This document shows, piece by piece, positions 16,296 to 40,555 of a DNA stretch of 40,560 bases. Made by a program: the position numbers and the translations under genes. Within the stretch, counting starts at the first letter, position 1. Each line of letters opens with the position of its first letter. The stretch is from Sulfurihydrogenibium sp. (lineage in GTDB: Bacteria > Aquificota > Aquificia > Aquificales > Hydrogenothermaceae). The notes under the pieces were generated by a model. That model was not told where the DNA came from, did no database searches, and saw nothing but the letters and a program-made list of their open reading frames with translations. The DNA lies in NCBI GenBank assembly GCA_002878035.1, contig PNIU01000008.1, positions 1 to 40,560 of the forward strand, given 5' to 3'.

Positions 16296-19200
16296 TTAAG
16301 CTTCTCTAACTTCTACAAACTTCAGCAGTCTTGGGAAAAATAAAAGTAAAAGTAAAGTTCCTAAGAACATACCACCTACAACTACTACGGCTAAAGGTTT
16401 TTGCACTTGACTACCGACTCCATGGGATACAGCAGCAGGAAATAGTCCAACAGATGCCGTTAAACCAGTTATAAGTATAGACCTAAACTTTTCTCTAATA
16501 GTTTTAACTATAGCTTCTTCCTTTTCTAATCCAGACCTTATAAAGTTAGAGTATGTAGACAACATTATGTTTGCGTTTAAAACAGCTATACCGAGAATTG
16601 ATATAAAACCAACGGAAGCAGAAACACTTATAGGTTCTTTCCAAATAAGCAAAAACAGTAAACCACCGAAGAAAGCATAAAGCGGAGATAGTAATACTAT
16701 AAAAGTATTTTTTATAGAGCCGTTTATAATGAACAAAACTATAACTATCACAAACAACGTAAATCCTATTGATATCTTTAACCTTTGAAAAGCTTGTTGC
16801 ATCTGCTCAAACTGACCTGACCAAGTAATAAAGTATCCTTCTGGAAGTTTTACATCCTTTATGGCATCCTGGGCTTTTGCAACTGTTCCCGCTAAATCTT
16901 TAGACTCGACAGAAAACTTGATAGGTATGTATCTTCTGTAGTTTTCTCTGTAAATAAAAGATGCTCCAGTATCGTAGTATATGTTTGCCACTTTAGAAAT
17001 AGGTATAAAAGAGCCATCTTGAAGTATTATTGGAATGTCTTTAATATCTTCTATACTATCTCTATACTTATCTGGGAATTTTACTACAAGGTCAAAAAAT
17101 TTATCCTCTTCCATTATCTGAGTTACAAACCTTCCGTTTAAAGAAGATTGTATAACGTCTAAAATATCTTCTACGGTTAAGTTATACAAAGATGCTTTTT
17201 CTCTATCAACTTGAATTATTAAGTTTGGCTGACCGAGTTCTTCAAATATACCAACGTCCGTTATCCCCGGAACTTTTTTTATTCTCTCTGCAACTTCGTG
17301 AGCTTTTTGTGTAAGTATGTTTAAATCTGAGCCAAAAATCTTTACTGAGTTTTCTCCTTTTACACCGGACATAGCTTCATCTAAGTTGTCCTGTATATAC
17401 TGTGATAGGTTTATATCAAAGTTTGGAAACTTCTGCCTTATCTTTTCTCTAATCTCTTTTTCTAACTCTTCTTTTGTTATATTTCTGGGCCATTTATCGT
17501 AATCTTTAAGTTTAACGAAGTACTCACTGTTAAAAGGACCTGTAGGGTCTGTGCCATCTTCTGGTCTTCCAACTTGAAACTCTACCTGCTCTACCTCTGG
17601 AAAAGATAAAAATATATCTCTTATTTCCTTTGCATTTTCGTAAGATTTTTTTAGTGAAATAGTGTAAGGGAATATTACCCTTGCGTATATATTACCTTCA
17701 TCCATCTTCGGCAGGAACTGGGCTCCAAGGGATTTAAACAAAATTATAGCTCCAACAAAAACTATCAAAGTAGCAAGTATAGCCATCTTAGAACTAATTT
17801 TTTCTACGACTTTTAAGTATATCCTTTCAAGGATTACAAAAAATTTAAACTTTCTTTCATGGCTATTTTTCAAAAAGATATAGCTTGATGCAAGAAGGTA
17901 AGTAAACGTTAGAACAAGGGCAAAGATAAGAGCGTAGATGTAAGTTTTAGCCATTGGCATGAATATTTGAGATTCTGAGCCTTTCATCGTAAAAAGCGGT
18001 ATAAATGCCAGTAAAATAACTATCATAGAAAACATTATAGGTTTTGATATCTGGTCTATGTTTTCTTTTAGAGCTTGGAAGTGATTTTTACCTTCATCTT
18101 TAAGTCTAAAGTAGTTCTCTATAAAAATCAAAGGAATATCTACTATGATACCAAAGTCTATCGCACCTATAGATAGTAAGTTGGCAGATTCTTTATTTAT
18201 AGCCATAACAGATAGAGTGTAAAGTAGAGATATAGGTATTATAGATGCTACGATTAAAGCAGACCTTACTTCTCCCAAAAATATAAGTATAACAACTAAA
18301 ACTAAAATAATTCCTGTTATGGCTGTTTCAGTTATCTTGTGAATGACCTTATCTATAAGTTCTTGTTTATCGTAGAATGGAATAACTTTCACATCCTTTG
18401 GTAAAACATGGTTGTTTAGATAATCTATCTTTTCGTGAAGGGCTTTTAGGGCTGGTATACTTTTTTCGTTTTTTCGAAGAACAACTACACCCATAACAAT
18501 ATCATCGTTTCTGTTTAATCCTACGTATGCTGTCCTTGGCAGATGGGATATTTGAACGTCTGCTATGTTTTTAACCATTATCGGAATGTTGTTTTTGTAC
18601 CCAACTATAGTATTTTCAATATCAGATACACTTTTAATAAGTCCAATACCTCTTATGTTGTAGTACTGGTCTCCAAACTCTAAAACCTTACCACCAACGT
18701 TTATGTTACTTTTTGAAACTTGGTCTATAACTTGAGATAAAGGTATTTTGTATTCAATCAGTTTTTGTGGATGGACTACTATGGAGTAAGCTTTTACTGC
18801 TCCACCATAACTTGATACGGTAGCAACTCCCGGAACTGTCTGTAGATTTCTGGCAACAATCCAATCTTGTATAGTTCTAAGGTCTATTAAAGACCTGTTG
18901 CCTTTTACTCTGTATCGCATTACTTCTCCGATTGGGCTTGGGTTTATGGAAGGAGATACGTTAGGCGGTAAGTTTACCTGTGAGAGTCTGTTTAAGACTT
19001 CTTGCCTTGCATCTTTGTAAGTTACATCAAAAGAGAATCTACACTTTATATCAGAAAGTCCGTAAAGAGATATGCTGTAGATGTTTTCCAAACCGGGCAT
19101 ACCTGCAAGGGCAACTTCCAAAGGAATGGTTATCTGCTTTTCAACTTCCTCTGCAGACCTACCTTCATAAACTGTAACTATTTCTACTATAGGCGGAGAT

Positions 19201-19325
19201 GGGTCTGGAAAAACTTCTATATTTAGCTGCCTAACTATAAACAAAGAGGAAACTACCAAAATAAAGTTTATCAAAAGTATGGCAACCGCATTTTCTATAA
19301 CAAACCTAAAAATCTTATGCATCAT
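16296..19325 (-). CDS. RND efflux permease, heavy-metal (CzcA-like) type
   Basis: 1009 aa; TM4 SIGAIDFGIIVDIPLIFIEN preserves the CzcA-type Asp/Asp/Glu pattern; MDEGNIYARVIFP. Confidence 0.92.
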   Translation of the reverse strand: MMHKIFRFVIENAVAILLINFILVVSSLFIVRQLNIEVFPDPSPPIVEIVTVYEGRSAEEVEKQITIPLEVALAGMPGLENIYSISLYGLSDIKCRFSFDVTYKDARQEVLNRLSQVNLPPNVSPSINPSPIGEVMRYRVKGNRSLIDLRTIQDWIVARNLQTVPGVATVSSYGGAVKAYSIVVHPQKLIEYKIPLSQVIDQVSKSNINVGGKVLEFGDQYYNIRGIGLIKSVSDIENTIVGYKNNIPIMVKNIADVQISHLPRTAYVGLNRNDDIVMGVVVLRKNEKSIPALKALHEKIDYLNNHVLPKDVKVIPFYDKQELIDKVIHKITETAITGIILVLVVILIFLGEVRSALIVASIIPISLLYTLSVMAINKESANLLSIGAIDFGIIVDIPLIFIENYFRLKDEGKNHFQALKENIDQISKPIMFSMIVILLAFIPLFTMKGSESQIFMPMAKTYIYALIFALVLTFTYLLASSYIFLKNSHERKFKFFVILERIYLKVVEKISSKMAILATLIVFVGAIILFKSLGAQFLPKMDEGNIYARVIFPYTISLKKSYENAKEIRDIFLSFPEVEQVEFQVGRPEDGTDPTGPFNSEYFVKLKDYDKWPRNITKEELEKEIREKIRQKFPNFDINLSQYIQDNLDEAMSGVKGENSVKIFGSDLNILTQKAHEVAERIKKVPGITDVGIFEELGQPNLIIQVDREKASLYNLTVEDILDVIQSSLNGRFVTQIMEEDKFFDLVVKFPDKYRDSIEDIKDIPIILQDGSFIPISKVANIYYDTGASFIYRENYRRYIPIKFSVESKDLAGTVAKAQDAIKDVKLPEGYFITWSGQFEQMQQAFQRLKISIGFTLFVIVIVLFIINGSIKNTFIVLLSPLYAFFGGLLFLLIWKEPISVSASVGFISILGIAVLNANIMLSTYSNFIRSGLEKEEAIVKTIREKFRSILITGLTASVGLFPAAVSHGVGSQVQKPLAVVVVGGMFLGTLLLLLFFPRLLKFVEVREA

Positions 19326-20362
19326 TCACCCTCAATGTTGATTGCATTAAGAACAACTTTATCATCTTTACTTATTCCGTTTACAATAGCATAGTTGTTA
19401 TCTTCAGAATCACCGATAACATCAATCTCTTTCTTTACTAACTTGTTATCTTTCAGTAAGTAAACGAAAAACTTGTTATCTTTAAAGATGATTGCGTTTT
19501 TTGGAATTGATAGGTAGCCATCAAAAAGTTTGCTAACTTTTATACTTACAAACATATTTGCTTTTAAATTTTCTGTAGTGGAAGGTTTTATGTAAATTTT
19601 TACGGTTTTTGTGTCTGGGTCTAAAACGTCAGATATGTAAAACACTTTTCCAGTTATAGTAGTTTTATCATCTAAGATTATGTCTACTGTATCGTTGTTT
19701 GAGAAAAATTTAGAGTCTTTTTCGTAAACGTTTGCAACAACTATAAACTTTCTTTTATCTGCTATCTTGATGATAGGTTGGGAAGAGTCTGCCTGAACGC
19801 GCGAACCTATGCTTGTATCTATCTCGTAGATTACACCATCTATCGGAGATTTAAGGTAAAAGTCGCTGAAATTTTTTACATTTAAAAGTCTTTGTTTTTC
19901 TTCTATACCTTTTAACGTATACTCAAGCTGTTTTACGTTCATTTCTGAAGCTATAAGGTCATTTTTTGATATAGCTCCAACTTCATAAAGACTTTTATTA
20001 AGTTCGTAAATTCTCTTTGCTTCCTGTAGCTGTGCTTTCACAGAAAGGTAGTTACTCTGAATATCTGGTATATCTAAGGCTTTTATCTTTAAGAGAGTTG
20101 TTCCTTTGCTTACGTTATCACCAACCTTTACGTATATCGCATCAATCTGACCGTTTATAGGTGGACTTAAGTTTACAACACCATCTGGAGTAAAAGAAAC
20201 GTTGGCAGGAAAAATCTTTAAAACTTTAGAGTACTGGGTAGAAGGTGATACAGTTTGGTAAGTAACTGTGTTAGGTTCTGAAGGTTTAGCCGTTTCTTTA
20301 TTTTCATTACAGGAAAAGATTAGAAAAGCCAAAGCTGTTTGAATTAAAACTATCTTTCTCAT
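19322..20362 (-). CDS. RND periplasmic adaptor (MFP), probable lipoprotein
   Basis: Lipobox FLIFSC; biotinyl-lipoyl-like INGQIDAIYVKVGDNVSKGTTLLKI; overlaps the RND gene. Confidence 0.9.
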   Translation of the reverse strand: MRKIVLIQTALAFLIFSCNENKETAKPSEPNTVTYQTVSPSTQYSKVLKIFPANVSFTPDGVVNLSPPINGQIDAIYVKVGDNVSKGTTLLKIKALDIPDIQSNYLSVKAQLQEAKRIYELNKSLYEVGAISKNDLIASEMNVKQLEYTLKGIEEKQRLLNVKNFSDFYLKSPIDGVIYEIDTSIGSRVQADSSQPIIKIADKRKFIVVANVYEKDSKFFSNNDTVDIILDDKTTITGKVFYISDVLDPDTKTVKIYIKPSTTENLKANMFVSIKVSKLFDGYLSIPKNAIIFKDNKFFVYLLKDNKLVKKEIDVIGDSEDNNYAIVNGISKDDKVVLNAINIEGE

Positions 20363-21567
20363 CAGTAGTCTCCCGTTGCTAATTTTAGTTGATACAAGAC
20401 AGTGTAATAATCAATTTTTGCTTGAGTGTAGCTTTTTTGAAATTCTCTAAAAAGTTTGTAAGTATCAAGTAGTGTTAAAACGTTTATACCTCTAAGGGCA
20501 AAAGCTTTTTCAGTGTTTTCTTTTAGTTTCTTTACATCTTCATACTTAGATTTATACTCATTCATTATACTTTCTTTTGATTTTAAGGAATAGTAAAGCT
20601 GTCTTATTTCTGTTTTTACCTGCTCGATGGTTTTCTCGTAAAGGATTTTGGATTGGATTAAGTTTATCTTTGATTTTAAAATCTCACCTTGGTTTCTGTC
20701 AAAAATTGGTATAGGAACACTAAAACCAACTCCCAAAAACTGGTATTTTTCTGCTACTCCATCAAATTCTAAACCTACCGTAACGTTAGGTATTGCCATA
20801 GCTTTGTTTAAATCAACTTGCAGTTGAGACGCTTCAACGTTAACCTTACTACTTTTAACATCGTACCTTTTTTCAATGGCTTTCTCTATCAAAGAATCTA
20901 TATCTTCAAACTGCTGGTTGTAGGAAAACAGACTTTCTGAATTTATATCATCAAAATCTGACTTTATAAGAAACTTTAAGTACTCTTTATCTTTGTTGTA
21001 AGACTCTAAGTTGCTGTAGTAATCTTTTTGGTAATCTATCAGACTAAGTTTAAGCTTTTCGTAATCTAAAGCTGGTAAAAATCCTTTTTCATACTGTATT
21101 TTTGCTATTTCTAAAACTTTTTGAAAATCTTCCAAATTTTTCTTTGAGTTTTCAAGCTGAAGTTTATCGTATAGCAGTTGAGTGTAAGCACTAAGATAAG
21201 TGTTTATGTAATCTTTAAGAGATGATTTAAAGTTTAGCTGAGTATACTGTAGAAGTTTTTCTGCAAGTTTTATTCTTATACTTCTTTTGTTTGCCGTTTC
21301 AATCTCTTGGTCTATACGAAAGGAGTTTTGAGTGTTTGAACGGTCTGAAAAATTACGTATGTTGTAGTAAGTAAAGTTTGCCGTAAAGACTGGATTTGGT
21401 CTTAGTTTTGCTGTGATTATATCGGCTTTTGCTTTTTCTATCTCATTTTTTTGGACTAATATATCGTAGTTGTTGTTTATAAATGTGTTTAAACCTTCTT
21501 CAAATGTTAGCGTTTGTCCGAAGGTAAAAGAAGAGTAAATCAAAAACCCCAAAACGTATTTCTTCAT
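20362..21567 (-). CDS. TolC-like outer membrane efflux protein
   Basis: Signal peptide, long coiled-coil repeats, operon with MFP and RND. Confidence 0.88.
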   Translation of the reverse strand: MKKYVLGFLIYSSFTFGQTLTFEEGLNTFINNNYDILVQKNEIEKAKADIITAKLRPNPVFTANFTYYNIRNFSDRSNTQNSFRIDQEIETANKRSIRIKLAEKLLQYTQLNFKSSLKDYINTYLSAYTQLLYDKLQLENSKKNLEDFQKVLEIAKIQYEKGFLPALDYEKLKLSLIDYQKDYYSNLESYNKDKEYLKFLIKSDFDDINSESLFSYNQQFEDIDSLIEKAIEKRYDVKSSKVNVEASQLQVDLNKAMAIPNVTVGLEFDGVAEKYQFLGVGFSVPIPIFDRNQGEILKSKINLIQSKILYEKTIEQVKTEIRQLYYSLKSKESIMNEYKSKYEDVKKLKENTEKAFALRGINVLTLLDTYKLFREFQKSYTQAKIDYYTVLYQLKLATGDY

Positions 21568-21606: not shown

Positions 21607-21639
21607 CAAAAGAAAAATTAAAAGAAAATTACAAAAATT

Positions 21640-30523: not shown

Positions 30524-33500
30524 TCAATGATTCAAAAGCCTTGCCAAAAAGTGGAAGAAAAGAGGTATTATTAGTAGATTTACGAATATGGCAAATAATA
30601 AACCTCCTATCATGCTTATAGCAAGGTCTTGAAGTATCTGGGTGCCACTTCCTATAGCTAACGCTATCGGTAGCATAGCAAAGGCGTTTGAAAGCATAGT
30701 CATAGTTATAGGTCTAAACCTACTTGCAGTTGCGTAAAGTATTCTATTTTCTATCTTTTCTTCTGGTGAATTTTTATAAAAATCAAAAATTAAGACGTTG
30801 TTGTTTATAACGATACTTAAGACTATAAGCATACCTATAAGTCCAGTTATATCAAGTGGCTTTCCAGTTATAAAAAGTGCCACTAAAACTCCAGTTAGGG
30901 TTAACACTACGGCAAGGAGAATGGATAACGTAATTTTAAAATCTACAAATAGAATCATAACAAAAATACCTATAAACGTGATGGCTGCTAAAATAACAAG
31001 CATTAAATTTTTGAATGATTCCTGTTGTTGTCTGTAAAATCCAGACACGACTGGCGTTATATCTGACGGTAGGTTTGCCTCTTGAATAGTTTGGTTTACA
31101 ACTTTCACGGCATCTGACATATTATTACCTTTAAACCTGACGGTAATAACGGCAACAGGAGATAGATTGTAGTGGGTAACTTCTGGAACATTACTTTTAT
31201 AAGAAACTTCTGCAACTTCAGACAAAGGTATAAACCTTCCAACTGTGTTTGAATAAACTTTCATACTTTCTGGGTTTAAAAACTGTTGTTTGTCTGTAGA
31301 AATTAATCTAAGGTTTATCACTTTTTCACCGTAAACGATATTTCCTACTACACTGCCCCAGTAAGCGTTGTAAAGTTGCTGGTAAAGGTCGTTTAAACTT
31401 AAGCCGTATATACTTTGAGCTTCTGGTTTTAACCTTATCCTTATCTCTCCAGAGGAGAAAGCCGTTTTTAGGTTTACTTCTTCCAGTAAAGGTTTTTCTC
31501 TTAGCATATCTCTTAGTTTAAAACCGTAGCTTACCAGTTTGTCAGGGTCGTAACCGTAAAGTAAAACCGATATAGGAGCTTCTTCCCCAAGAATATCTGC
31601 TAATCTATCCTCTATAACTTGTGGAAGGTCGAATTCTTCAAGGTTGTTAAACTTATCTTCTATCCTTTTTCTAACTTCTTCCTTTATCTCAAATATACTT
31701 CTGCTTTTGTTTTCCTTTAAAACTACCAAAAAGTCTCCAACGTTTGGCTGTTCTGTCACGTGTCCAAGGGAAGTGCCTATCCTTAAAGTCCAGTTTTTTA
31801 CTTCTGGAATCGAGTTTAAAATCTTTCCCATTTCCATAGCAGTTTTGTAAGACTCTTCTAAAGAAGTTCCGGCTGGAAGTGTAAAATCTACAACGAAACT
31901 TCCTTCATCCCACTTTGGCAGAAAAGTTGCAGGAATAGACCTGTAAAGTAGAAATCCTGATAACATTACAACAAAAACCAGCACTACGGCTATAAAGTCA
32001 TACTTAAAAAGTCTTTCTAAGAACTTTTCATAGCGTTTTTCCAATCTGGTTATAAAGTCTTCTTTACTTTCGAAACGGTTAGGTAAAAGTATGTATGCAA
32101 TTACTGGAACTAAAAAGATTGCAGCAATTTGAGAAACGATGTAAGTTAAAACTAAAACCAAAGCTAACTGTTTTAAAAATACTCCAACGACACCGGGTAC
32201 AAAAAGCAGTGGCAAGAAAACCAAAGTAGATATTAAAGTTGCACCGGTCATTATAGGAAGTATCTCTTTAGAACCGTCTATTATTGCCGTTAGTTTATCC
32301 TTTCCATACTTTAGATGTCTGTCTATGTTTTCAACTACGATTATAACGTGGTCTACTAAACCACCTATAGCGGCGGCCATACCACCGAGAGAAAATAAGT
32401 TAAAATCTAAACCTAAAACTTTTATACCTATAATCGTTATAAAAAAGACCATCGGAAGAATCAGTAAAGTTGCGAAGGAAATTTTAACTTTTCTTAAAAA
32501 GATAAACAGAATCACAACGGCTATAATGCTACCTAATACGATAGCATCTCTTACACTTTTTATAGACTCTTTTATAAATACAGAAGAGTCGTAAGATTTG
32601 TATATTTTAACTCCTTCTTTTTCTAAGCTTTTGTTTATAATGTCAATCTGCCTATCTACGTTTTGGATAACGGTTGTTGTATCTGCGTCCGGTTGTCTTA
32701 GTATGTTAAATACAACGGCATTTTTTACATTTGAAAAACCAGAAGTAGCCCTTGAAGGGTATTTAGAGTTTACGATGACGGCTACGTCTGAAAGGTTTAT
32801 GTATCTACCGTTAGAAAGTGGTATTTTTACATCTAAAAGTTTGTAAACGTCTTCAGGCTTTTGGTAGAGAGTGACTATATACTGTTTGTTTAATAAGTCA
32901 GAAACACCTAAAAAATCTATCTTAGTTTGGTTGTAAATTACAGATTTTAAGTAATCTAAGGAAATGTTGTAGTTGTTTAACTTGTCTGTATCGACTACGA
33001 TGTGAAACTCTTGCCATTGTGGGGCTTTTATCTCAAGGTCGTAAACGCCGGGTATTGATATTATCAAAGGTTTTATCTTGTAGTAAAGTATATCGGTAAG
33101 TTCGGTTTGTGATTTAGTGTCTGAACTTATAGCGTATATACCGATAGGATACATACTCGGAGTAGCCTGCCTTACAACTACCTTAGCCGTTGATGGTATA
33201 ACGTTTTTTAACTCACTTACCCTTGCTAAAACAAGCTGATATGCCGTAAACGGGTTTGTAGACCAGTTAAAGTAAAGGTTTATCTCTACCGAACCTATAG
33301 ATGTTTTAGAGACTATCTTCTCTACACCTTGAACCGTTTTAAGCGACTCTTCTGCAGGTTTTGTTATTTCAAGTAGCATCTGTTTTGTAGGAGTGTAACC
33401 GTTCTCTATTGCAACCTCAACCCTTGGAAAGTAAACGTTTGGAAATATATCCTTCGTTACAGAGTTAGACGTGTAATAACCAATAATACCAAACATTAAG

Positions 33501-33562
33501 AATATAAGTATAACTGCAACCTTTCTTCTAATAAGAAATACGAAAAAGTCTTTAGAATTCAT
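30524..33562 (-). CDS. RND efflux permease (second system)
   Basis: 1012 aa; TM4 SLGGMAAAIGGLVDHVIIVVEN; KWDEGSFVVDFTLPAGTS; two periplasmic loops. Confidence 0.92.
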   Translation of the reverse strand: MNSKDFFVFLIRRKVAVILIFLMFGIIGYYTSNSVTKDIFPNVYFPRVEVAIENGYTPTKQMLLEITKPAEESLKTVQGVEKIVSKTSIGSVEINLYFNWSTNPFTAYQLVLARVSELKNVIPSTAKVVVRQATPSMYPIGIYAISSDTKSQTELTDILYYKIKPLIISIPGVYDLEIKAPQWQEFHIVVDTDKLNNYNISLDYLKSVIYNQTKIDFLGVSDLLNKQYIVTLYQKPEDVYKLLDVKIPLSNGRYINLSDVAVIVNSKYPSRATSGFSNVKNAVVFNILRQPDADTTTVIQNVDRQIDIINKSLEKEGVKIYKSYDSSVFIKESIKSVRDAIVLGSIIAVVILFIFLRKVKISFATLLILPMVFFITIIGIKVLGLDFNLFSLGGMAAAIGGLVDHVIIVVENIDRHLKYGKDKLTAIIDGSKEILPIMTGATLISTLVFLPLLFVPGVVGVFLKQLALVLVLTYIVSQIAAIFLVPVIAYILLPNRFESKEDFITRLEKRYEKFLERLFKYDFIAVVLVFVVMLSGFLLYRSIPATFLPKWDEGSFVVDFTLPAGTSLEESYKTAMEMGKILNSIPEVKNWTLRIGTSLGHVTEQPNVGDFLVVLKENKSRSIFEIKEEVRKRIEDKFNNLEEFDLPQVIEDRLADILGEEAPISVLLYGYDPDKLVSYGFKLRDMLREKPLLEEVNLKTAFSSGEIRIRLKPEAQSIYGLSLNDLYQQLYNAYWGSVVGNIVYGEKVINLRLISTDKQQFLNPESMKVYSNTVGRFIPLSEVAEVSYKSNVPEVTHYNLSPVAVITVRFKGNNMSDAVKVVNQTIQEANLPSDITPVVSGFYRQQQESFKNLMLVILAAITFIGIFVMILFVDFKITLSILLAVVLTLTGVLVALFITGKPLDITGLIGMLIVLSIVINNNVLIFDFYKNSPEEKIENRILYATASRFRPITMTMLSNAFAMLPIALAIGSGTQILQDLAISMIGGLLFAIFVNLLIIPLFFHFLARLLNH

Positions 33563-34512
33563 TTAACTTTAACCTCATCACCATCTTTCAGATTACCTGA
33601 AACGATGACGAAATCTCCCTCATCTTTCATAACGTTAACTTTTTCTTTTAACTCTTTACCGTTTGACACCTTAAACACAAAAAAGCCTTTATCTTCCAAC
33701 ACCAGAGATTTTTTAGGAATTTTAAAGCCAGACAAACCATCTATATACAACGTTATACTCTGTCTGTAGTTTAAAGGTAAATCTATAACCTTCTCTGAAT
33801 AAGTTTTAACTTTAACAAGGTTTCCTTCGGAAACGGGAACTATCTCTTTTACGTTTAGAGTGATTAAATCATCGTTTAACTTTGCACTTAAAACTTTTTT
33901 AGATTTTATTAAGTTTAAATACTCGACTGGAACGTAAAGGTATAAAAAGTTTGAGTTTTGGTTGTAAACTGTAGCGATTGGGGTTCCTACAGTTACATAC
34001 TGACCTTCTGGAACGATGTTAAGAATATAACCTTCACAGTTAGAAAAAAGTTTAAAGTTGCTTTTTTGGATACTGTAGGTTTTTAGCTGGGCTTTTAACG
34101 TTTCAAGCTCTGATTTTTTTAGAGAAATACTGTTTTTAATATCTAAGATATCGTTTTTTGAAGCTAAACCTAAGTTGTAAAGGTTTTCGTAGTTTTCAAG
34201 TTTTTTTGTTAGGTTTTGTATCTCAGTTTGAGTAATCTCAATCCTTTTTACAGTTGATTGAATGTTTGAGTCTAAAAACTCGTTTTTAAAGCTACCTATC
34301 ACCTGTCCGATTTTTACTCTATCACCGACAGAAACGAAAGAATGAAAGTAACCTTCCGTTTTTGAAGTTATGGCACACTGCTTACCAGACTCTACCTGAC
34401 CTGAAACTTGAACCTGTATCTGTGTTTTAACAGGTATAACCTTAAAAGTATCCAAACCAAAAGAACCTTTAAAACTAAAAAACGTAAAAATTAAAAACCA
34501 TAAGAGTCTCAT
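33559..34512 (-). CDS. RND periplasmic adaptor (MFP)
   Basis: Signal peptide, TEGYFHSFVSVGDRVKIGQVIGSF, coiled coil; 4-nt overlap with the RND gene. Confidence 0.88.
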   Translation of the reverse strand: MRLLWFLIFTFFSFKGSFGLDTFKVIPVKTQIQVQVSGQVESGKQCAITSKTEGYFHSFVSVGDRVKIGQVIGSFKNEFLDSNIQSTVKRIEITQTEIQNLTKKLENYENLYNLGLASKNDILDIKNSISLKKSELETLKAQLKTYSIQKSNFKLFSNCEGYILNIVPEGQYVTVGTPIATVYNQNSNFLYLYVPVEYLNLIKSKKVLSAKLNDDLITLNVKEIVPVSEGNLVKVKTYSEKVIDLPLNYRQSITLYIDGLSGFKIPKKSLVLEDKGFFVFKVSNGKELKEKVNVMKDEGDFVIVSGNLKDGDEVKVK

Positions 34513-35726
34513 CTGTATATATCTCCTTTCACCAGATGCTCTAAAAGTTTAAAACTCATATAAGTGTTATACTTTGTCTGAACGTAGTTATTTTTTGCGT
34601 TTACGTAATCGTAGTAGTATTTGTCCAAAACGATGAAGTTTGCTACTCCCATCTTGTAGGCTTTTAAGTATTTTTCATAAACATCGTAAGATACCTGAAC
34701 TTGTTTTTCGTAAGTCTTTAGACTGTCTATACCATACAAAACAGACGTGTAAAGATTTTCAAGGTTTTGCTGTAAAGTTAGATTTTGTCTAAACTTTTGA
34801 ATATTCAGTATTCTGTCTTTAACAGAAAGACTTAGCAGTTTATACCTTAAGCCACCGTAAAAAAGATTAGAAGTAAAACCAACAGAAAATACGTTTTGGT
34901 TTCCATTACCGGTAGGGTCTTTGTTTATTTGTCTTTCATAGGATAGATAAAACTTAGGAATCCAGTAATTTTTCTCTTTTCTGTATTCAACTTCGTTTAT
35001 TTTTTTATCTAAATCGATAATTTTAACGTCTGGACTGTTTTTAAGATATATTTCTTTCTGGCTGTAAATCTGATTTAAATCTTCTTTGCTTAGATTGTAA
35101 GGTTCTACTGGTTTTATCTGGTCTAAACCAGAAACTATTTTTAAGATGTTGTAGTAAGATTCCATATACTTTTGATACTGTAAGAGATTTGCCTGCTCCG
35201 TTAAAAGTTTAAGCTGCCAGTTATCGTACTCTACCGCCGGAAATCTACCGTCTTTTACGGCTTCTTTTACAAAGTTTAAGATTTCTTCAACGTTTTTTAC
35301 TCTTTCCTGCTGAATATTTACAAGCTCAAAATACATACAGTAGTTTACGTAAGCCGTAAGAAGATTTTTAAACAAGGTTTCTTTCTCTTTCTCAGAAATT
35401 ACAACGGACTTTTCAATTAGTATTCTGTTTATTTCTTCATCGAACTTGCTTTTTCCAAAAATATCCATATCGTTAACAATCTTTAAAGATGTGATGTTGT
35501 AAGAAGGCACGGCTTGAGTATTGGAATGGGAAAAGCTTAAATCTGCGTTTATGTTTAAAAATCTGGTTGCAAAAAGGTCTTTGTAAAGAAGTTGGTAATA
35601 CTCTTTGTTGTTTTTTAAGTTTTCATCTACCAAAAAGTTTTTTTTAGCTGCCTGAAAAATATCCATAATCTCATCGGCTTTAACCGTATAAAACAAGGTT
35701 AAAATTAGTAAAATTAAGTTTTTCAT
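34509..35726 (-). CDS. TolC-like outer membrane efflux protein
   Basis: Signal peptide, coiled-coil repeats, context with MFP and RND. Confidence 0.85.
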   Translation of the reverse strand: MKNLILLILTLFYTVKADEIMDIFQAAKKNFLVDENLKNNKEYYQLLYKDLFATRFLNINADLSFSHSNTQAVPSYNITSLKIVNDMDIFGKSKFDEEINRILIEKSVVISEKEKETLFKNLLTAYVNYCMYFELVNIQQERVKNVEEILNFVKEAVKDGRFPAVEYDNWQLKLLTEQANLLQYQKYMESYYNILKIVSGLDQIKPVEPYNLSKEDLNQIYSQKEIYLKNSPDVKIIDLDKKINEVEYRKEKNYWIPKFYLSYERQINKDPTGNGNQNVFSVGFTSNLFYGGLRYKLLSLSVKDRILNIQKFRQNLTLQQNLENLYTSVLYGIDSLKTYEKQVQVSYDVYEKYLKAYKMGVANFIVLDKYYYDYVNAKNNYVQTKYNTYMSFKLLEHLVKGDIYR

Positions 35727-36508
35727 TTTTCAAAAAAATTTAAAGTTTCTCTAAAAACAGTCTCTCTTTCGTTATCTATCGTAATCATATGGTAGCTGTC
35801 TTTTAAAATCAAGAGTTTTTTCTCTGGAGAAGATACTTTTTCGTATATAGTGTAGGCACTTTTTACACTTGAGAGGTCGTCATACTGAGAATGTAAAACT
35901 ATAACAGGTTTTGTTATAGTTGGTAGTTCTTTAATCAAATGTTTTGAAAGTTTTAGAAGTTCTTTTATCGTAACGCCGGGGAATCTATCGTAAGCTACTG
36001 CATTTTTTGTTAAAAGACTTGATACTTTTTTCCTGACGGCTTCGTTTTTTATGCCATAAGGAAATTTCTCTTTAAAGTAGAAAAAATGTTTTACCGGAGT
36101 TGCTAAAACCAACGGAAGAAGCTTAACTGCCTTTGGTATGCTCCAACCATCAAGGTATAGTGTAGGAGACCAAGCTGCCACTTTTTTGACCTTTTCACTT
36201 TCTTTAGACAGAAGTAGTGAAAGCATACCACCTACACATAGACCTGCTACGTATATACTTTCATAATCGTTCTCTATCGTTTTTAAAAGTGTCCTTACAC
36301 TGTCTAACCAGTCTTGCCATTTTGTTTTTTTCAAGTCTTCCAAAGTTGTACAGTGTCCTGCCAGTATAGGACAGTAAACGTCGTAACCTTCTTGATTAAA
36401 CTTACCACCTATCCATCTAAGCTCAAAAGGACCACCTGTTAAACCATGAATCAGTATAAGTGCTTTTTTACCTTCACCTTTTAGTATGAAACCTTCCCTA
36501 TAACTCAT
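35723..36508 (-). CDS. Alpha/beta hydrolase (Est30/monoacylglycerol-lipase-like fold) with Cys in the nucleophile elbow
   Basis: LILIHGLTGGPFE, nucleophile elbow VAGLCVGGML, Asp SQYDDLSS, His SYHMITID. Confidence 0.9.
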   Translation of the reverse strand: MSYREGFILKGEGKKALILIHGLTGGPFELRWIGGKFNQEGYDVYCPILAGHCTTLEDLKKTKWQDWLDSVRTLLKTIENDYESIYVAGLCVGGMLSLLLSKESEKVKKVAAWSPTLYLDGWSIPKAVKLLPLVLATPVKHFFYFKEKFPYGIKNEAVRKKVSSLLTKNAVAYDRFPGVTIKELLKLSKHLIKELPTITKPVIVLHSQYDDLSSVKSAYTIYEKVSSPEKKLLILKDSYHMITIDNERETVFRETLNFFEK

Positions 36509-37871
36509 CTTTACTTACTCTGGAAAATAGTGCGTCTAAAAGTAAAACGGCAAGCTCTATCTCTTGGTCTGTTATCTCAAGAGAAGGTGCAAGGGTTAAA
36601 ACGTTTTTGTAATAGCCTCCAACGTCTAAAACTAAGCCGTAGTTCTTTCCGTTTACGTTTATGTTAGCCTTTAAACCTTCTTCAACTATTTTATCTGTTA
36701 GCCTTTTTGAAGGTGTATAACCATCTTTTTCACATATCTCTACTCTTAAAGCCAGTCCTAAACCGTCAACATCTCCAATAAACGGATACTTTTTCTTTAA
36801 ATCTTTGAGTAATTCTAAAAACTTCTTTCCTTTTTCTTCCACTATCTTTTCGTAATCTTTTTCTTCAATTAAGTTAAACACTTCTAAACCTGCTCTTACA
36901 CCTATAGGGTTAGATGAAAAGGTTGAGTGAGTGCTTCCCGGTGGAAATATATCTGGATTTATAAGCTCTTCTCTTGCCCACAAACCAGACAACGGGTTCA
37001 TTCCGTTAGTTAAAGATTTTCCAAAGACGATAATATCCGGCTTAACGCCAAAATGCTCTATACTCCAAAGTTTTCCAGTTCTGTAAAAGCCCATCTGTAT
37101 CTCATCACTTACAAGTAAAACTTTATACTCGTCAAGGACTGGCTTTATTCTTTTAAAGTAATCTTTCGGTGGTATTATATAACCACCAGTTCCTTGTATA
37201 GGCTCAATGTAAAATGCTCCAAACTCGCAGTTTTTAGTTTTTGGATTGCAAACGGTGTAATACTCACTTTCAAAAAGTTTCTCAAACTCTTTAGCACAGT
37301 AAAGGTCGCAGGTTTCTTTTTCTTTTCCGTAAGGACATCTAAAACAGTAAGGATAAGGAATAAAAAAAGCCCTGTCTGAAAAATGACCATATCTCTCTCT
37401 GTATCTATAACTGGAAGTTATGTTTGTAGCTCCTATGGTTCTTCCGTGATAACCGCCCATAAACGCAAAGTTTAGATTTTTCTTAGTGTAATTTCTCACG
37501 ATTTTTAAAGAATCTTCTATAGCTTGAGAACCTCCAACGTTAAAATGTACTCTTCCTTTTAAACCAAACCTGTCTTCAACAGATTTTGCTATCTTGTAAG
37601 ATAGAAGTATCTTCTCTTTTGTTAAAAACTGGGAAGCAAGCTGTCCTAACGTATCCATCTGGTTTTTTATGGCATCGTTAATTTTTCTGTTGTTGTATCC
37701 AAAGTTGCAGGCAGAGTACCACATCTGTAAGTCTAAGTATTCTTTCCCTTCCAAATCGTAAAGATAGCTTCCTTCAGACCTTGCAAAAATCTTAGGCGGG
37801 TTTAAATAATGGACAGTATCTCCAAAAGAACAGTACTTAGATTCAAGTTCTAAAAGTTCTTTTTCTGTCAT
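36498..37871 (-). CDS. Class III PLP-dependent aminotransferase
   Basis: NVGGSQAIEDSLKIVRNYT, GGYHGRTIGATNIT, PYCFRCPYG, SDEIQMGFYRTG, IVFGKSLTNGMNPLSG (PLP Lys). Confidence 0.93.
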   Translation of the reverse strand: MTEKELLELESKYCSFGDTVHYLNPPKIFARSEGSYLYDLEGKEYLDLQMWYSACNFGYNNRKINDAIKNQMDTLGQLASQFLTKEKILLSYKIAKSVEDRFGLKGRVHFNVGGSQAIEDSLKIVRNYTKKNLNFAFMGGYHGRTIGATNITSSYRYRERYGHFSDRAFFIPYPYCFRCPYGKEKETCDLYCAKEFEKLFESEYYTVCNPKTKNCEFGAFYIEPIQGTGGYIIPPKDYFKRIKPVLDEYKVLLVSDEIQMGFYRTGKLWSIEHFGVKPDIIVFGKSLTNGMNPLSGLWAREELINPDIFPPGSTHSTFSSNPIGVRAGLEVFNLIEEKDYEKIVEEKGKKFLELLKDLKKKYPFIGDVDGLGLALRVEICEKDGYTPSKRLTDKIVEEGLKANINVNGKNYGLVLDVGGYYKNVLTLAPSLEITDQEIELAVLLLDALFSRVSKDEL

Positions 37872-38508
37872 TTTTAATCTCCTCTTGAAGGTTTTTGATT
37901 ATATCTTTAAAGTTTTCAAATTTATAAACATCCTTTCCTACACTTTTTAAGTATTCGTAGAGTTTTCCTTTTGCAAAAACTTTTTCTACTTTAGTTGCAA
38001 CGCAAAAATCGGACCTCCCATCTCCTATGTAGTAAAGTTTTTCGTGATGTATGTTTTTTTCGTAGAATTTACACTTGCAGTTTCCCATTTTAGCACTACA
38101 GAAAGGATAGTAGTAAGGAAACTCTACCTTTAGACCTTCTTCTGTAAAGATTAACTCGTTAGATAAAATTAAATCTACTTTTATACCGTGTTTATCTAAA
38201 ATCTTCTCTATAAAGTATCTAAATCCATCGCTTATTATGAAAACTTTTCCGCTAAATGTCTTTACAAATTCCACAAAATCTTTAAAGTGTTCGTCTATCT
38301 CTACACTTTCCAAGAAATAATCTACCTTTTCTTTGTCTATATCTTTTACAAGGGATACCTGTTGAGAAAGACAGTCTAAGGAAGATATCTCACCTTTAAG
38401 CCACCTTTCCTCAACGTCAAGGTATTCTCTATCTGCAAAAACTTCTAAGAATGTATCCACCACATCTACTTTTGTAATAGTTCCGTCAAAATCACATAAA
38501 AAAACCAA
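37843..38508 (-). CDS. HAD-superfamily phosphatase (MtnX/SerB-like subclass IB)
   Basis: CDFDGTIT motif I, IISDGF motif II, KMGNCKC, GDGRSDFCVA motif IV. Confidence 0.88.
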   Translation of the reverse strand: MVFLCDFDGTITKVDVVDTFLEVFADREYLDVEERWLKGEISSLDCLSQQVSLVKDIDKEKVDYFLESVEIDEHFKDFVEFVKTFSGKVFIISDGFRYFIEKILDKHGIKVDLILSNELIFTEEGLKVEFPYYYPFCSAKMGNCKCKFYEKNIHHEKLYYIGDGRSDFCVATKVEKVFAKGKLYEYLKSVGKDVYKFENFKDIIKNLQEEIKNDRKRTFRT

Positions 38509-38533: not shown

Positions 38534-38567
38534 AAAGATTACTATGAGAATATTACAAAAAGATTAC
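38534..38567 (-). promoter_or_regulatory. Candidate OmpR-family response regulator boxes
   Basis: ATTAC (plus strand) at 38538-38542, 38552-38556, 38563-38567; exact AAAGATTAC repeat at 38534-38542 and 38559-38567. Confidence 0.5.
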
Positions 38568-38571
38568 AATT

Positions 38572-39897
38572 TTACGCTATAGTTAACTCTACAGTCGTTC
38601 CTTGGTTTACTACACTCTTTATATTTATCTTTATTCCAAGTATGTTTGAGTAAAGTTTGACGATGGAAAGTCCAAGTCCTAAACCTTCAGAATTTTCAGA
38701 TTTATAAAACTCATCGAATATTTTTTCTAACTTGTCTTCTTCTATACCTACTCCAGTATCCGATACAGTTAGTTTTACGGTTGAGTTTTCTTCGTAGGCT
38801 TTAATTTTGATTGTTCCGTTTTGTTTGTTAAAGTTGACCGCATTACTTATTATGTTTTGCAGTATCTCTTTAAACATAACTTCGTCAGTTTGGATAGTTA
38901 AGTTTTTATCTAAGTCTAACTCTACTTTTAGATTTTTTTCTTTTATCTTTTGGCTAAAGATTGATAGGACTTCTTTTACAACCTTATCAACGTTTACCTG
39001 CTTTATATCTGGATAGAATAGTTCCTTTGTTTTGTAAAGTTTGTTAAGTATCTGAAATATACTTAGAATGTATAAAGATATTTCGTGAATGTTCTTTAAG
39101 GTCTTTATATACTCTTCTTTTTCTCTATCTTTTCGTAGGGTTATGTCTATATCAGTGATTATTGTAGTTAAAGGGGTTTTTATCTCATGGGATAAGACTA
39201 CGATAAAATCTTTCTGCTTTTGGTAAAGTTCTTTAACTGTGTTTAACAGATTGTTGAATGTTTGTATTATCTTTTTAAACTCTTCAGAATACTTGTTGCT
39301 GTCTATTGGGGTTAGGTCTACAACGGACACATTTTCTATATCTTCAGAAAGCCTGTCTATATTTTTTAGATTTTTATCTACAGTGTAGTATATAAATCCA
39401 TTTAGTAATAAAATCGTAACTATGTAAAGTGTTATCAGTATGTCGTCGTATTTTTCTATTACTGATATGATTCTGTTGACATTTTTAGCGATTAAAACTT
39501 GATAATCTGGTAATTTAACGTAAATAAGTCTATAAACATTTTTCTCAATCTTTACGTTTTTTATCTCTTCATTTTCTAAGTTTTTTACTAAAGCGTTGAT
39601 GTTTTTATCTAAAACAGGGTCATTTTTTATGTTCTTATAAACAACTTGGCCATCTTTTAAGACGATTATACGGTATTTGTCGTTGTTAAAAATCTTTATA
39701 TCTTCAAGTAAGTCTTTGTCTTCTGATAGTTTTAAGATTTCTTCTTTTTTGCTTTCTAAGTCTGAATCTACATTTTGATACATCAAATCTTTTAAAAGCG
39801 AAAAAGAAACGTAGCTAAACAGTGATATTAAAACTACAGAACCTAAAAACAGTTGAATAACTATTTTCTGTTTTAAACTTCTATTCTTCAAAAACAT
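38572..39897 (-). CDS. Two-component sensor histidine kinase
   Basis: Two TM segments, VVLSHEIKTPLTTI H-box, ISNAVNFNKQNG, DTGVGIEEDKLEKIFDEFYK, GLGLGLSIV. Confidence 0.94.
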   Translation of the reverse strand: MFLKNRSLKQKIVIQLFLGSVVLISLFSYVSFSLLKDLMYQNVDSDLESKKEEILKLSEDKDLLEDIKIFNNDKYRIIVLKDGQVVYKNIKNDPVLDKNINALVKNLENEEIKNVKIEKNVYRLIYVKLPDYQVLIAKNVNRIISVIEKYDDILITLYIVTILLLNGFIYYTVDKNLKNIDRLSEDIENVSVVDLTPIDSNKYSEEFKKIIQTFNNLLNTVKELYQKQKDFIVVLSHEIKTPLTTIITDIDITLRKDREKEEYIKTLKNIHEISLYILSIFQILNKLYKTKELFYPDIKQVNVDKVVKEVLSIFSQKIKEKNLKVELDLDKNLTIQTDEVMFKEILQNIISNAVNFNKQNGTIKIKAYEENSTVKLTVSDTGVGIEEDKLEKIFDEFYKSENSEGLGLGLSIVKLYSNILGIKINIKSVVNQGTTVELTIA

Positions 39898-40555
39898 CGA
39901 ATATATAACCTAAACCTCTTATAGACTTTATATACTTGTGATTTTCATCTTCTATCTTACTCCTTAACCTTGATATGAGAACTTCCACAACATTACTATT
40001 TAGTTCGAAGGATATATCGTAAACTGCGTTGATAATATTCTCCCGTGTAATTATTTTCCCTTTGTTTAAGACAAAGTATCTTAAAAGTAAATACTCTTTG
40101 GCTGAAAGTTTAAGTGTTTGGCCAGATTTTTTAACGGTAGATTTTGCTAAATCTATTTCTAAGTCTCCGATGTTGATTATAGAAGATTTTATATCTTTAT
40201 CTCTTCTTAAAACTGCCCTTATCCTTGCTAAAAGTTCTTCAAAGTTAAAAGGTTTTGTTATGTAGTCGTCTGCTCCCAAATCAAGGGCTTCTATCTTACT
40301 TTTTATCTCATCTTTGGCAGTTAATATGATTATAGGCACTTTTACGTTTTTAGCTCTTAAGATTTTTATAACTTCTTTACCGTCTAACTTAGGAATCATA
40401 AGGTCAAGTATCACAACATCGTAATTTTGAGTGGATAGGTAGTTTAAAGCTTCCTCTCCATCGTAAACTAAATCTACAAGGTAATTTTCTTCTTCAAGTC
40501 CTTTCTTTATAAGCTTTCCTAACCTCTTCTCATCTTCAACTACCAGTATTTTCAT
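39881..40555 (-). CDS. OmpR-family response regulator
   Basis: VVEDEKRLG, VILDLMIPKLDG, LTAKDE, DYITKPF, winged-helix LSAKEYLLLRYFVLNKGKIITRENI. Confidence 0.95.
   Translation of the reverse strand: MKILVVEDEKRLGKLIKKGLEEENYLVDLVYDGEEALNYLSTQNYDVVILDLMIPKLDGKEVIKILRAKNVKVPIIILTAKDEIKSKIEALDLGADDYITKPFNFEELLARIRAVLRRDKDIKSSIINIGDLEIDLAKSTVKKSGQTLKLSAKEYLLLRYFVLNKGKIITRENIINAVYDISFELNSNVVEVLISRLRSKIEDENHKYIKSIRGLGYIFDVFEE

Follow-up and report, generated by a model that had tools for sequence, protein, structure and literature searches.

DevBCA-TolC is a dedicated exporter for heterocyst glycolipids. In the clusters to which this system (PMC6161253) belongs, biosynthetic genes are linked to a tripartite exporter, as they are at the locus described here, where the exporter is an RND pump and not an ABC transporter. 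This locus lies on a 40,560-nucleotide (nt) stretch of DNA from Sulfurihydrogenibium sp. (Aquificota; contig PNIU01000008.1 of assembly GCA_002878035.1), hereafter the window, which is the entire contig and whose coverage ends with the response regulator gene of the locus. Eight genes on the same strand are concerned: a response regulator and a sensor histidine kinase; a trio of enzymes, namely a HAD phosphatase (HAD), a class III pyridoxal phosphate (PLP) enzyme (AT) and an alpha/beta hydrolase (ABH); and the outer-membrane factor (OMF), periplasmic adaptor (MFP) and permease (RND) of the pump (Table 1).

The AcrAB-TolC and Mex operons share with the locus the tandem arrangement of OMF, MFP and RND genes with 4-nt overlaps, and a linked regulator. 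Here, however, the run is preceded by three overlapping metabolic enzyme genes, and the permease falls under every NCBIfam subfamily cut-off, with D-H in transmembrane segment (TM) 4 and N-N-N in TM10. On the regulatory side the resemblance is to the CzcCBA/CusCBA systems with their CzcRS/CopRS regulators: the nearest families of the response regulator and kinase are these, and a direct-repeat box is shared with a CzcA-type pump. The pump of the six-gene run is nevertheless not CzcA, and the three enzymes have no counterpart in the metal systems. The enzymes themselves belong to the same superfamilies as MtnX, GABA-AT/ArgD, BioA and PbfA, but the recurrent neighbours of the trio, examined in 80 loci, do not include the pathway partners of those proteins.

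We propose that the six genes and the two-component system form one regulated unit, which joins a mobile enzyme trio to a dedicated RND exporter, and that the product of the trio is an envelope lipid or amphiphile bearing an amine. We give this reading a probability of roughly 45%. A first-pass annotation made from the sequence of the window had described a six-gene unit of three enzymes and a pump. Its open reading frames agree with ours to the base in order, strand and coordinates, its overlaps are exact (HAD-AT 29 nt, AT-ABH 11 nt, and 4 nt each for ABH-OMF, OMF-MFP and MFP-RND), and all six of its family names are those given by Pfam. Correct as far as it went, that description was incomplete, as it omitted the upstream response regulator and kinase, the direct-repeat box and a second RND operon.

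The HAD-AT and AT-ABH overlaps are kept in two relatives of the same genus, G003 and G006, and are therefore not due to chance. The kinase gene ends 63 bp before the HAD start, a TTG codon with a good ribosome-binding site (AAGGAGAAG) just upstream, and the sequence surrounding this start is similar in G003, G004, G005 and G006. A terminator scan found no terminator-like site on the minus strand at the gene junctions; the one minus-strand match (37008-36990) is within the AT gene, and terminator matches were fewer than the shuffle mean. Overlaps and terminator-free junctions are thus both consistent with a single co-transcribed operon.

Table 1. Features of the locus and of the second RND operon in the window. 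Family calls were made with Pfam and NCBIfam profiles and the cut-offs of the models.
Feature	Coordinates	Strand	Evidence or remark
OmpR-family response regulator, CzcR/CopR-like	39881..40555	-	Response_reg + Trans_reg_C
Sensor histidine kinase, CzcS/CopS-like	38572..39897	-	HATPase_c
TTGTAAT-N4-TTGTAAT direct repeat before HAD, probable response regulator box (predicted)	38552..38569	-	Sole exact copy in the window genome
MtnX-like HAD-IB phosphatase (HAD), 221 amino acids, TTG start	37843..38508	-	HAD/Put_Phosphatase; TIGR01489
Class III PLP enzyme (AT), distinct subfamily	36498..37871	-	Aminotran_3 9e-75, 252 bits
Alpha/beta hydrolase (ABH)	35723..36508	-	Hydrolase_4 1e-18
TolC-like outer-membrane factor (OMF)	34509..35726	-	OEP 6.6e-21
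Periplasmic adaptor (MFP)	33559..34512	-	HlyD_2; TIGR01730 RND_mfp 96.0 bits, cut-off 94.9
RND permease, outlier of ACR_tran	30524..33562	-	ACR_tran 1.9e-178
Second box, one mismatch, 50 bp before OMF2	21617..21634	-	Besides the box before HAD, the sole site within one mismatch in the window
Second RND operon OMF2-MFP2-RND2, CusA/CzcA type	16296..21567	-	RND2 752 bits TIGR00914, cut-off 701

The strongest evidence for a link between trio and pump comes from comparisons within the genus, for which identity of leuA to the window genome (G000) provides a yardstick: 94-95% for G001, G003 and G006, 89% for G002, G004 and G005, and 63% for g16, a genus of another family. Of the six genomes of the genus that have the trio, five (G000, G002, G004, G005 and G006) carry a pump next to it, with partners exchanged. 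The eight genes are laid out alike in G000 and G006, whose ATs are 92% identical, yet the pumps of the two are only 61, 40 and 35% identical in RND, MFP and OMF, as against 86, 75 and 74% between the pump of G000 and that of the more distant G004. Conversely, G002, G004 and G005 carry the G000-type pump beside a foreign trio, in the order pump then trio. That trio is closer to the one in g16 (AT 92%, HAD 61-63%, ABH 73-76%) than to the one in the window (AT 76%, HAD 43-45%, ABH 47%), whereas leuA of the same genomes is 63% identical to g16 and 89% to congeners. With its AT 92% identical across families, the trio has therefore moved horizontally, and these identities, together with the AT tree, indicate that it passed between genera as a unit. 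In G003 the pump has been lost: the N-terminal part of OMF and the last 26 codons of RND sit directly after ABH (L011:11300-11600), exactly where G006 has its pump. The ABH-OMF junction overlaps with both pump types. At least once, one of the partners has been replaced and trio and pump have been paired anew, which is not expected from chance adjacency. In G002 (L013:1237-7843), HAD and AT are separated by an open reading frame of 553 amino acids that resembles a transposase, and the neighbouring RND gene is truncated (782 amino acids, one TAG).

Beyond the genus the picture is different. The claim that enzymes and pump are one system holds within the genus but not in general, as the g16 genomes examined and most of the 80 loci in other phyla have no RND pump beside the trio. 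Absence of the pump in relatives, which the first-pass annotation had named as an observation that would refute it, is thus found at the scale of family and phylum, not at that of the genus. What has been conserved as a unit is the three enzymes alone, not the enzymes together with a pump.

Among 136 Aquificota genomes, AT is present in 11, belonging to two of 30 genera (6 of the 7 genomes in the window's genus and 5 in g16), and the order HAD-AT-ABH is constant in the neighbourhoods examined. A search of contigs outside Aquificota gave at least 578 confirmed relatives of AT, and the neighbourhood counts that follow are taken from the best 80 loci of these. HAD directly precedes AT in 67 of the 80, and ABH is nearby in 48-50. 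The AT tree includes Pseudomonadota, Myxococcota, Omnitrophota, Acidobacteriota, Chlamydiota, Gemmatimonadota, Verrucomicrobiota, Melainabacteria and Aquificota; among the carriers are Pseudomonas, Rhizobium, Agrobacterium and Bartonella, which can be cultured. Judged by gene order and alignment, then, the trio is a real unit, found in at least nine phyla. Across phyla AT remains 62-68% identical to that of the window, with many invariant positions, and such identity over these distances suggests that it catalyses a fixed and specific reaction. A phage-borne origin of the cassette is unsupported, with no relative of AT in IMG/VR, and the three enzymes match no PADLOC model of anti-phage defence. 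The enzyme families and the pump class are known, but a literature search, outside which lay subscription journals and preprints, found no description of the trio as a unit, of the wider cluster, or of the trio's union with an RND exporter.

The setting of the trio in other phyla is lipid- and envelope-like. Recurrent neighbours in the 80 loci are FemAB/GNAT acyltransferases (28), KAS (22), EamA-like pairs (22-26), AMP-ligases (15), MGDG-synthase-like glycosyltransferases (12) and response regulators (29); two-component systems, an arginase-like protein and a DegT aminotransferase also recur, and CFA synthase and desaturase are present too. On a Rhizobium plasmid (L103) the order is regulator, kinase, HAD, AT, arginase-like, EamA, desaturase, hydrolase, GNAT, EamA and CFA synthase. 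On an Agrobacterium plasmid (L102) a divergent regulator-kinase pair lies upstream of HAD, AT, arginase-like, EamA, hydrolase, GNAT and EamA, followed by TolC, ABC permease, ATPase and adaptor genes, a TolC-DevC-DevA-DevB-like exporter set. These clusters of about ten genes resemble a lipid pathway on conjugative plasmids. DevC-type exporters occur near the trio in 6 of the 80 loci. Outside Aquificota, 5 of 43 trio loci have RND genes close by, where 1.6 would be expected, a weak enrichment (Poisson P ~0.03 by loci).

Solved homologs align over most of the length of AT and HAD, and exist also for the hydrolase fold. Roles in methionine salvage and in biotin, GABA, arginine or phosphonate metabolism were rejected, as the equivalog cut-offs are all missed by wide margins. 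HAD scores 114.9 bits against TIGR01489 (cut-off 81.55), which places it in the broad MtnX-like HAD-IB phosphatases. All HAD motifs are present, with D6, D8, T10, S93, K145, G162-D-G and D167 kept in 79-81 of 81 relatives; Cys144 is invariant and Cys137 is found in 80 of the 81. It is not a true MtnX of methionine salvage (TIGR03333, 91 bits against a cut-off of 303), and no mtn cluster was found among the recurrent neighbours examined.

AT has the hallmarks of the class III PLP fold, with an Aminotran_3 match and invariant PLP lysine (K285) and Asp (D256), but it reaches no NCBIfam cut-off; BioA, for instance, is excluded at 201 bits against 405 (TIGR00508). Its nearest relatives in the PDB are amino-acid racemases and GABA transaminases, and it is close to neither. 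In E. coli GABA-AT, E211 is the glutamate switch and R398 binds the alpha-carboxylate. Aligned with that enzyme, AT has T228 and T426 at these positions, and both are invariant, as are R144, D256, K285 and T317, in all 88 members of the subfamily. Identification as a glutamate-dependent omega, ornithine or GABA aminotransferase was therefore rejected, and use of the glutamate/2-oxoglutarate couple by AT is doubtful. Most members also keep four Cys at residues 176, 179, 188 and 192 (CxxC-x8-CxxxC), which are absent from the aligned racemases and GABA-AT and are possibly a metal site.

ABH resembles monoacylglycerol lipase and has a full triad of Cys91 (in a GLCVG box), D210 and H240. Every Aquificota copy has Cys as the nucleophile, but so do only 12 of 56 aligned proteins, the other 44 having Ser, and we have dropped Cys91 as a defining acyltransferase trait. 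In G004 the hydrolase seems to be part of a fusion of 1930 amino acids, but this is an artefact produced by a 5-kb run of N.

The pump has the permease, adaptor and TolC-like factor of an RND tripartite exporter encoded together. Its permease reaches no NCBIfam subfamily cut-off, and was rejected as a CusA/CzcA heavy-metal RND (TIGR00914, 353.7 bits against 701). Its motifs 'GLVDH' in TM4 and 'INNN' in TM10 are shared with the pumps of G004, G005 and G006. The second RND operon in the window, by comparison, is of the heavy-metal type. In G003 and G006 its ortholog is adjacent to and divergent from the response regulator gene, while in the window it is about 18 kb away from the two-component system.

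The response regulator falls short of its best NCBIfam model, cztR_silR_copR (232 bits, cut-off 279), as does the kinase of cztS_silS_copS (171 bits, cut-off 292.55). Orthologs of the regulator are at the same position in G003 and G006 with 74-75% identity, compared with 53-55% for the kinase. The predicted box before HAD has an exact copy at the same position in both relatives, and before OMF2 of the CzcA-type pump there is a second exact box in G006 and a one-mismatch box in G003. In G000, G003 and G006 every exact site belongs to this locus. Only 0.10 sites with at most one mismatch are expected by chance in the window. Across the window genome, weaker sites are about as frequent as those of a reversed-pattern control, so only exact or synteny-conserved sites carry weight. 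One such weaker but conserved box is shared by genes for small lipoprotein-like and secreted proteins of about 80 amino acids each, which lie beside another kinase in G003 (L134), G000 (L135) and G006 (L136); in G003 and G006 it consists of overlapping repeats. The box may thus belong to more than one regulator.

In the mechanism we propose, the sensor kinase would detect envelope or metal-related stress, and the response regulator would bind the TTGTAAT-N4-TTGTAAT box and induce the operon, and probably the CzcA-type pump as well. HAD would dephosphorylate a precursor, the PLP enzyme would add or rearrange an amine, and ABH would attack an acyl or ester bond, either hydrolysing it or transferring the acyl group, although the order of these chemical steps is itself conjectural. 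The pump would then move the amine-bearing lipid or amphiphile to the outer membrane or outside the cell. What we infer is co-transcription, binding by the regulator, the reaction at each step, that the product is a lipid and that this pump exports it; the order and overlaps of the genes, the conservation, transfer and re-pairing of the cassette, the loss of the pump and the box are read from the DNA itself. The idea of the first-pass annotation that a small molecule or lipid headgroup is made and exported remains the best guess as to the product, while its alternative, processing of an imported or toxic substrate, finds no support.

Several observations weigh against our proposal. In g16 and G003 no pump lies next to the trio, and the gene set that bears the box beside another kinase makes the cognate regulator of the box uncertain. 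A search of Aquificota genomes found no FemAB-like or arginase-like partners, and one of the window genome and its relatives found none of the accessory genes of other phyla, DegT matches there being generic and partial; positive controls worked in both searches. Aquificota thus seem to carry the bare core of the trio pathway, and as the tested lipid partners are absent there, the product may differ from that made elsewhere. Alternatively, one stress regulator controls both pump and enzymes although they have no common substrate, the enzymes remodelling the envelope while the pump removes metals or toxic compounds. The box before the CzcA-type operon, the kinship of kinase and regulator with metal sensors, and the pumpless trios of g16 and G003 would all fit such a division of labour. 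It is harder to see why two different pumps should then occupy the same operon position after ABH, or why pump and trio should stay neighbours in G002, G004 and G005, where the gene order differs, and we regard co-regulation without a shared substrate as unlikely, if worth serious attention.

The metal-type two-component system, the box shared with the CzcA pump and the missing lipid partners could also mean that the product of the trio is a small secondary metabolite that contains an amine, such as a metal-binding compound, and that the RND pump secretes it. As the recurrent neighbours include no metallophore synthase, nonribosomal peptide synthetase or polyketide synthase, and those in other phyla are acyl-chain and membrane genes, a product of this kind is distinctly improbable. 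Chance or selfish assembly of the operon, in which a mobile cassette landed beside pump genes with no function in common, has in its favour the clear mobility and patchy distribution of the trio (11 of 136 Aquificota genomes) and the modest excess of RND genes near it elsewhere, but it is at odds with repeated adjacency of exchanged partners in one genus and with ABH-OMF overlaps that form with both pump types; we find it less probable again. A phosphatase and a PLP amination would suit the amino-polyol headgroup of the aminopentanetetrol phospholipid typical of Aquificales, a lipid called diagnostic of Aquificae (PMC4318418). It is reported in Aquifex, Hydrogenobaculum, Hydrogenothermus and Thermocrinis (PMC3035279), however, while AT is in two of 30 Aquificota genera, and on this mismatch of distributions synthesis of that headgroup by the trio is rejected as close to refuted.

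Our proposal of a trio joined to its own exporter can be extended to other phyla, though more tentatively: the trio could be the core of an undescribed pathway, in at least nine phyla, for an amine-bearing envelope lipid, built around a PLP subfamily without the glutamate switch and with exporters of the RND or DevBCA kind attached lineage by lineage. The genus of the window, in which one set of enzymes occurs with more than one pump and one pump with more than one set of enzymes, offers a natural experiment on the pump as exporter of the product. The trio itself is small and highly conserved, and the nine phyla that carry it include culturable genera. Should it make a new class of envelope lipid, lipidomics of a laboratory knockout strain would bring this to light.

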